36,564 nucleotides of DNA from Actinomycetota bacterium (GTDB taxonomy: Bacteria; Actinomycetota; Actinomycetes; Nanopelagicales; Nanopelagicaceae): the NCBI GenBank assembly GCA_016870855.1, contig VGAF01000003.1:1-36564 (forward strand), written 5' to 3'. Positions within the stretch are counted from its first letter, which is position 1; every line of letters starts with the position of its first letter. This document shows positions 7,095 through 9,351 of the stretch, one piece after another. The position numbers and the translations under genes are program-made. The notes below the pieces were generated by a model. It saw nothing but the letters and a program-made list of their open reading frames with translations, had not been told where the DNA came from and did not search any database.

Positions 7095-8303
7095 CTAGAC
7101 CCGGCCTCCATACGGCATCAATCCCTTGATGCTGTAGATATTGGAGAAGAGCAGGCCTTTACCTTTTGAATTCGCCTCCCACATCATCCCGTTTCCGGCA
7201 TAAATCGTGATGTGGTGGATTGTGTTCACAGTTCCCTTATATGAATAGAAGAGAAGATCTCCGGGCACAAGATCCTTGATGGGAACGTGTTTTGTATAAG
7301 AGAAATAGAGCGAAGAGTTAAGGCGATCCCAATTCGGCCAACTTAAACCGGCGGCGCGGTATGCGGCATAAACAAGTCCAGAGCAATCAAAGGCATTTGG
7401 GCCCTCATCTCCCCAGATGTATGGCTTGCGAGCGAGGACTTGCTTCTTTGCAAATGCCACAGCTTCAGCTCTCATTTCCGGAGTTGAGCGTGAGGTGGAG
7501 CGACCTTTGAAACCAATGTCGGGCCAGATTTTCGTGTAGATAGCGGTGCCTTGAGCGATAGTTGCATTCGCTTCTTCCAAGAGCGCTAGTTGGCGCTGTT
7601 GCTCAAGAGTTACACGTTTTGCACGTGCAGCATTCAATTCTTTTAGAACCTGATCTTGAATCTTTTGGAGTCGATCAACTTCTTTCTGTTGAGCATCGCG
7701 GGCGGCATCGGCTTCGGCTTTTGCTGCAGCTACTTTTGCGGTCGCAACACGTTGCCGCTCTTCGGCAGCATCGGCGAGCTTCTTTGCTTCGCGCGCAGCA
7801 TCTTCAGCAGCCTTAAATCTAAAGAGCGCTTGAGTGTTCTGTTCTCCGAGTGAATCTAATGTAGATAGCCGATCCATTAAATCTTGCGGGCCATCAGAGT
7901 GAAGTAGTGAATCAAAGTCAGTGAAACCACCGCCCATTATGTAAGCATTGGTGGCGAGGCGTCCGATTGCATCATGCGCTGCTTTTACTTGTTTCAAAGC
8001 TTCTTGATAAGCCGCGGCGGCGGCATCGGCTTCACTAGTTGCGCGAGCTAACTCAGCGCGCGCTGCTTCATAGCGAACTCGAGCGGTATTTGCGACAGCA
8101 ATTAATTGGCGAAGGGTGAGGTTTGCTTTTGCTAAACGCGCTGCTGCGGCATCGGCTGCTTTCTTAGCTTCTGCTTCCAACTTCTTTGCCGCTTCGATCT
8201 GGGCAATTGTTGGCTTCTTAGGATTTGCCAGCGCAGGCGTCGTCGAAAATAGAAGTAGCGATGCTATTGCGAGCGCTATCCGACGCTTAGAACTAAATCT
8301 CAC
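7095..8303 (-). CDS. secreted NlpC/P60-family peptidoglycan endopeptidase (RipA-like) with coiled-coil N-terminus
   Basis: Signal peptide, long Ala-rich coiled coil, C-terminal FDCSGLVYAAYRAAG ... GDLLFYS ... HHITIYAGNG; GTG start with AGGGAG 7 nt upstream. Confidence 0.9.
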   Translation of the reverse strand: MRFSSKRRIALAIASLLLFSTTPALANPKKPTIAQIEAAKKLEAEAKKAADAAAARLAKANLTLRQLIAVANTARVRYEAARAELARATSEADAAAAAYQEALKQVKAAHDAIGRLATNAYIMGGGFTDFDSLLHSDGPQDLMDRLSTLDSLGEQNTQALFRFKAAEDAAREAKKLADAAEERQRVATAKVAAAKAEADAARDAQQKEVDRLQKIQDQVLKELNAARAKRVTLEQQRQLALLEEANATIAQGTAIYTKIWPDIGFKGRSTSRSTPEMRAEAVAFAKKQVLARKPYIWGDEGPNAFDCSGLVYAAYRAAGLSWPNWDRLNSSLYFSYTKHVPIKDLVPGDLLFYSYKGTVNTIHHITIYAGNGMMWEANSKGKGLLFSNIYSIKGLMPYGGRV

Positions 8304-8389
8304 TAATTGGCTCCCTGGGGAAATGGGGGTCAGTTACTTGTGAAAAGGGTAAAGGGAGAGTTTCAAAAATCTCTGCATTTGGAATGTGA

Positions 8390-8466
8390 CCTTCCTGGCT
8401 AACCTTTCGGTAAGGGCCGCTAGGGGCCCCTTTCGCCAGGAAGGGACGTTTAGAGAAACCTAGCGG
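8390..8466 (-). ncRNA. candidate structured leader RNA upstream of the NlpC/P60 gene
   Basis: Minus strand CCTTCCTGGC ... GCCAGGAAGG (8390-8399/8435-8444) 10-bp perfect stem enclosing AAGGG(G)CC-CCTAGC-GGCCCTT and ACC-GAAA-GGT hairpins; CCGCTAGG/CCTAGCGG complement upstream (8459-8466 vs 8417-8424). Confidence 0.55.
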
Positions 8467-8514
8467 TCTTCAGTGAGTGATTCCTGAGAACTTCTACGGA
8501 GCGTTGAGCGGGAT

Positions 8515-9351
8515 TTAGAGAAATACTCCAACAACTAGCGCGATTGAGTAGAGGCTTAGGTAAGTGATGGAACCGTGGAAGATCGGGCCAGAATTCTTAT
8601 CTGGGTCGCGTAATTGGTAGGCAAATCCAATTCCAAGTATCGCCGTTACTACGTAGGTCCAGCTTGAAAGTCCGGCGGAGTAGAGCGTTAAGAATGAAGT
8701 GATGATCATGGCGATGGTGTGAAACCACATCTGCTGGGTTACTTTTCTTATTGGCGCAACCACAGGAAGCATCGGGATTCCGGCGGCTTCATAATCATCT
8801 TTGTACTTGATGGCAAGGGCCCAAAAGTGAGGTGGCGTCCAGAAGAAAATAACCATAAAGAACCAGAACGCCGTCCACGAAAGTGTTTCAGTCACCGCCG
8901 CCCAGCCGATAAGAACGGGTAAGCATCCAGCAATTCCGCCCCAAACTATGTTCTGAGAGGTACGGCGCTTTAGCTCAACGGTGTATCCAAAGACATAGAA
9001 AGCGATTGCGCTTACGGTCAAACCAGTCGCAAGTGGATTAGTAAATACCCAGAAAATCGCAAGTGAAATTGCGCTTATTACAAATGCAAAGGTAAGTGCT
9101 TGGGTTTCGGTCACTTGTTCATTGACAATCGGACGCTTTGAGGTTCGCTCCATCATCTTGTCGATATCACTTTCAATCACCATGTTAAATGCATTTGCCG
9201 CCCCGGCGGCAAGAGTTCCGCCGATAAGAGTTGCGAAAGTTATATCAAGTGGTGGAACTCCATTCGCAGCAAGGAAGAGAGCTGGCAGAGTTGTAACAAG
9301 TAAAAGCTCTACAACCCGTAATTTCATTAGGGCGATGTAGGGCGAAATCAT
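8515..9351 (-). CDS. ctaB: protoheme IX farnesyltransferase (heme O synthase)
   Basis: UbiA-family NMVIESDIDKMMERTSKRPI and WTPPHFWALAIKYKDDYEAAGIPMLPVV motifs; multiple TM segments. Confidence 0.94.
   Translation of the reverse strand: MISPYIALMKLRVVELLLVTTLPALFLAANGVPPLDITFATLIGGTLAAGAANAFNMVIESDIDKMMERTSKRPIVNEQVTETQALTFAFVISAISLAIFWVFTNPLATGLTVSAIAFYVFGYTVELKRRTSQNIVWGGIAGCLPVLIGWAAVTETLSWTAFWFFMVIFFWTPPHFWALAIKYKDDYEAAGIPMLPVVAPIRKVTQQMWFHTIAMIITSFLTLYSAGLSSWTYVVTAILGIGFAYQLRDPDKNSGPIFHGSITYLSLYSIALVVGVFL

Follow-up and report, generated by a model that had tools for sequence, protein, structure and literature searches.

DUF3800 proteins are described as having a catalytically rearranged RNase H fold and as being associated with putative non-coding RNAs and with Cas12a2 loci (PMC10910872). 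Small RNAs of DUF3800 genes are already catalogued, and a function for them was not found in the literature as far as we could trace it. The catalogued family most like the RNA described here, DUF3800-IX (RF02968, typed 'Gene; sRNA' in Rfam), has an outer stem of about 11 bp, a GAA linker, two inner hairpins and a UA linker. DUF3800-XI (RF02975) is likewise a small RNA beside DUF3800 genes but differs in being a single hairpin with a conserved tail. A further known class, the c-di-AMP riboswitch ydaO/yuaA (RF00379), is found ahead of certain cell-wall hydrolase genes in actinobacteria.

We analyzed a stretch of 36,564 nucleotides (the window) from an Actinomycetota genome assembly (G000; 1.34 Mb, 177 contigs, 88.8% complete), in which an RNA element was noticed between two genes of the minus strand. 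The locus is composed as follows.

7095..8303, minus strand: nlpC, an NlpC/P60 peptidoglycan hydrolase gene (Pfam PF00877), a bystander
8302..8355, minus strand: conserved promoter/leader block of nlpC itself (..TTTAYCC..GTAACTGACCCCCATTTCCCCAGGGAGCC, including the Shine-Dalgarno sequence), separate from the RNA, from genus comparison
8304-8514, non-coding: cyoE-nlpC gap of 211 bp, with cyoE upstream and nlpC downstream, both on the minus strand
8385..8445, minus strand: full-length match (1-67) to Rfam DUF3800-IX (RF02968), 33.6 bits, with E 3.9e-6 in a search of 86 bases
8390..8444, minus strand: three-way-junction RNA core, 55 nt, from the fold, covariation over 13 homologues and the covariance-model score
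8444-8435/8399-8390, minus strand: outer stem P1, 10 bp, from the fold
8431-8425/8418-8412, minus strand: hairpin P2, 7 bp, from the fold
8411-8402, minus strand: hairpin P3, ACC-GAAA-GGT, from the fold
8457..8462, minus strand: TAGGTT, probably the -10 box of a promoter belonging to the RNA itself, from recurrence of TANNNT across RNA loci
8515..9351, minus strand: UbiA-family gene (protohaem IX farnesyltransferase, cyoE/ctaB; Pfam PF01040), upstream neighbor and bystander

Within the core, GAA links P1 to P2 and UA links P3 to P1. Folding gave a minimum free energy of -57.6 kcal/mol for the 211-nt gap (z -2.0) and about -32 kcal/mol for the 55-nt core alone, and over 60 nt the RNA is among the handful of strongest folds across 317 kb of the window's genome. 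Our final covariance model (R3) scored the window RNA at 70.6 bits and gave no other convincing match in the window. In an alignment of 13 homologues, which was fitted to the structure and is thereby biased in its favor, standard pairs occupied 99.6% of the paired cells (shuffled mean 74.9), double-sided, compensatory changes occurred at 18 of 20 pairs (shuffled 8.5) and the covariation score was 0.70 versus 0.22 in shuffled alignments; the margin is nevertheless very large, with 0 of 500 shuffles reaching the observed values and slid alignments nowhere near them. G-U occupied 15 paired cells and A-C none, and the functional RNA strand is therefore the window's minus strand. Judged by this alignment, the RNA is real, with a fold well beyond chance. 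The earlier note had described a three-way junction on the minus strand with a GNRA loop on that strand and had suggested an analysis of covariation; both the junction and the loop (P3), whose strand is set by the G-U pairs, are borne out. It had also judged correctly that this is not a simple U-tract terminator, since P1 is followed on its 3' side by TCACATTCC and not directly by a U-run. A REP-like repeated element was considered and rejected: the RNA is single copy in G000, and exact matches numbered 0 in viral contigs and 1 in genome contigs, that of the relative G013.

DUF3800-IX was the top Rfam match of a scan of 86 bases, but its 33.6 bits, which arose only in this short stretch, where Infernal's filters are laxer, lie below the curated gathering score of 36.8. 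Rfam scans of the whole window (by gathering score) and of 311 bases (by E-value) gave no useful match. Searches with RF02968 returned no match over the whole G000 and G013 genomes, and none over 395 Actinomycetes genomes under stricter filters and without a positive control. The order of elements in the family's consensus, an outer stem enclosing GAA, two successive hairpins and UA, recurs when the window RNA is aligned to the model and is backed by the covariation above, and homologous RNAs from two other genomes (G246 and G120) match DUF3800-IX at 24.6 and 24.3 bits, beside the ends of DUF3800 genes; for the G120 RNA it is the only Rfam match (E 0.0016). The window RNA differs from the family in the third hairpin, which is shorter and capped by a GNRA loop, in having no clear U-run after the stem, in its score under the curated cut-off and in lacking an adjoining DUF3800 gene. 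As the score falls just under 36.8, we call the RNA DUF3800-IX-like without formally assigning it to the family. The c-di-AMP riboswitch, whose consensus the earlier note had been unable to recognize at this site, differs from the window RNA in structure and gene association, and RF00379 had no match in the whole-window, 311-base or 86-base scan. The Rfam comparison suggested there thus came out negative for that class and yielded a full-length match, below the cut-off, to DUF3800-IX.

The nearest relative with the RNA belongs to the same genus (G013). Its RNA is identical to the window's at 52 of 55 positions, against an identity of about 88% for the coding DNA around it, and divergence is visibly higher in the 70 nt that separate the RNA from cyoE. 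In G013 the RNA also follows cyoE, and a 660-bp opposite-strand gene encoding a DUF3800 protein (PF12686, E 4e-9) lies between the RNA and nlpC, with its TAA stop codon inside P1. A covariance model built from these two sequences (R1) detected the RNA at the 3' ends of DUF3800 genes in two further genomes (G246 and G117), whose proteins are 29-31% identical to that of G013. A four-sequence model (R2) detected it at DUF3800 loci that had been collected by protein similarity alone, namely in G120, the Gordonia phages Kenna and Lutum, Ruegeria and Phaeobacter plasmids, an IMG/VR contig and five further Actinomycetes genomes. At 13 of 13 testable, non-redundant DUF3800 loci, spread over Actinomycetes, Rhodobacterales plasmids and Gordonia phage, the RNA adjoins the DUF3800 gene, as in the DUF3800-associated RNAs, and lies on the opposite strand, -13 to +14 nt from the end of the stop codon; left out of this count are the loci without RNA that are truncated by a contig end (L088, L080) or hold a gene fragment only (L038), and two loci with more distant DUF3800 proteins (L096 and L097). 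These last two carry, instead of the three-way-junction RNA, the catalogued DUF3800-XI RNA at 60-61 bits, which in L097 is encoded on the same strand as the gene, close to the gene's 5' end. Wider plasmid and phage searches gave no additional records. Across these loci, comparison shows the fold, the strand and a fixed tail-to-tail position relative to DUF3800 genes.

In phage Kenna, gene 54 (L098 3302-4063), annotated as hypothetical, encodes a DUF3800 protein, and its 3' end adjoins the RNA. It is located near the integrase and overlaps the gene for the immunity repressor. The integrase/repressor region of phages is often the site of prophage-expressed protective genes, and gene 54 is a candidate lysogen-expressed defense or exclusion gene.

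The RNA appears to have its own promoter. Of 14 RNA loci, 9 have TANNNT between 17 and 21 nt ahead of P1, a count that 0 of 2000 shuffles reached and that is somewhat optimistic, as the interval was picked after the pattern had been seen by eye. In several loci AAAG or AAACG follows about 6 nt past the box. This supports an independent RNA of about 65 nt that would be transcribed from the TAGGTT box, with a predicted start near 8451 (AAACG); the length is taken from the end of the Rfam model at 8385. The earlier note's placement of the box at 8462-8457 and of the RNA start near 8450 thereby gains comparative support. Its proposed pseudoknot or switch between CCGCTAGG and CCTAGCGG was rejected: the complementarity exists, but it is missing in G013, its upstream part overlaps the -10 box and lies ahead of the inferred start, and by a rough estimate a single 8-bp match per 211 nt is close to chance.

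Protein, profile and local tblastn searches found no DUF3800 gene in the G000 assembly, of which about 11% may be missing, nor is there one beside the window copy, and we therefore regard the window RNA as an orphan. The nlpC gene is 96% identical to the window's in G013 and 92% in another, by this measure more distant relative (G007), and the latter has an N-terminal DUF3800 fragment upstream of nlpC, which suggests that the common ancestor had a DUF3800 gene and that this was deleted in G000. The ancestor of the window lineage would have carried both RNA and gene between cyoE and nlpC, an arrangement retained in G013, and deletion of the gene would have left the RNA adjoining nlpC by accident. 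In G120 (L090) an intact RNA (61.6 bits) adjoins what is left of a DUF3800 gene, interrupted by in-frame stop codons; read in this way, G120 is a second case of the RNA outliving the gene. The fragment in G007 (L006/L038) is in frame with a sequence that by eye resembles an aldo/keto reductase, a deletion fusion or an assembly error.

We propose that the element is a DUF3800-associated small RNA gene, orphaned, with DUF3800-IX as the closest Rfam family (probability about 0.9), and that an orphan DUF3800-type small RNA gene with an apparently lost partner gene is the best explanation of the locus as a whole (0.88). New here is a divergent, orphaned example of an already catalogued kind of RNA, within a group that is sharply defined by its fixed tail-to-tail geometry, apparent own promoter, strong covariation and temperate-phage immunity repressor neighbor. 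In two genomes the RNA appears to have outlived the DUF3800 gene, and an orphan of this sort can be misread as a riboswitch controlling the gene it now adjoins. Without a known partner in G000, the window RNA may be a relic, or a strong hairpin that still separates cyoE from nlpC.

An AlphaFold model of the DUF3800 protein, made from three sequences, was weak (pLDDT 65); compared with solved structures, this low-confidence model matched RNase HII best (E 1e-5) and RuvC more weakly, and a sequence search against solved structures gave no match. The PADLOC model DUF3800_VII matches these proteins. Given the RNase H-like fold, the known association with non-coding RNAs and the phage repressor context, an enzyme-plus-RNA system is the natural reading; in it, the RNase H-like DUF3800 protein would have the RNA as its non-coding partner and would most likely be bound by it. 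The RNA may act as an antidote or inhibitor, or as a cofactor, of a DUF3800 nuclease, perhaps in defense, a tentative assignment to which we give somewhat less than even odds. The RNA occurs twice without the gene, and no intact testable gene of this group occurs without the RNA, which in these small numbers fits an antidote. More doubtful is the wider proposal of a two-part nuclease system, RNase H-like and moving between phages, plasmids and bacteria, in which the RNA serves as antidote or guide. Orphan copies would then persist because the RNA without the enzyme is harmless, or because it shields the cell from incoming DUF3800 elements.

A different reading, suggested by the G013 locus before the RNA turned up at distant DUF3800 loci, makes the element no more than a strong terminator of transcription behind cyoE. 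It would be one of the terminators without a U-tract that have been reported from some actinobacteria, and in G013, where it lies between convergent genes, it would work in both directions. The RNA does lie 70 nt past the cyoE stop and ahead of nlpC's own promoter, and other strong intergenic hairpins in the window's genome also sit near gene ends, several of them without a long U-tract. We now consider this very unlikely, because of those distant loci; the three-way junction, the linkers and the fixed placement at DUF3800 genes are common to other phyla and phages, and both the G-U pairs, confined to one strand, and the -10 box ahead of the stem speak for an RNA product. The element may still terminate transcription as a side effect.

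A still smaller chance goes to a role at the DNA level, with the hairpin as the end by which a mobile DUF3800 cassette, inserting behind other genes, is recognized. The sporadic occurrence of the pair, with the DUF3800 gene in 5 of 296 family genomes, at unrelated loci and on plasmids and phages, is what such a cassette would lead one to expect. The restriction of G-U pairs to one strand (15 versus 0) instead points to selection on RNA and not on DNA, the element is single copy in G000, and no matching second end was noticed, though not in a systematic search.

The earlier note's proposal, in which the RNA controls the NlpC/P60 gene in cis as a leader or riboswitch, is scarcely credible: RNA and nlpC share a strand with no intervening gene in G000, and read-through would give a leader of about 147 nt, but an opposite-strand DUF3800 gene separates the two in G013, the homologues adjoin DUF3800 genes and not nlpC, and the genus relatives lack the RNA before nlpC and have another conserved leader. 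Orthologues of nlpC are present throughout the genus, and R1, with strict filters, found the RNA in 2 of 296 family genomes (G000 and G013); R3 did not find it at the other genus nlpC loci searched, so that the structure is not conserved with nlpC among relatives. In many of them the cyoE-nlpC gap is just 100-115 bp and therefore has no room for the RNA. A different block of about 48 nt, ending in CCCCAGGGAGCC right before the start codon, is present at 20 of 20 genus loci holding the nlpC start. On this comparison, the RNA is not an nlpC leader or riboswitch, and the earlier assignment was mistaken.

The nlpC block itself (GTAACTGACCCCCATTTCCCCAGGGAGCC with the upstream TTTAYCC) is strikingly conserved in the 20 genus loci, occurs once in the window's genome and is a possible conserved regulatory site. 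The cyoE-nlpC gap behaves as an insertion hotspot in the genus (for example, L003, L005, L007, L009, L012 and L021), holding, depending on the species, DUF3800, ApbE-like and ferric-reductase-like, signal-peptidase-like or other genes, all but DUF3800 identified by eye from translations. In a further genome (G006, L043), about 25 residues close to the C-terminal end are missing from cyoE, with GIGFA joined to SIALVLGVFL, which suggests a deletion close to the cyoE-nlpC gap.
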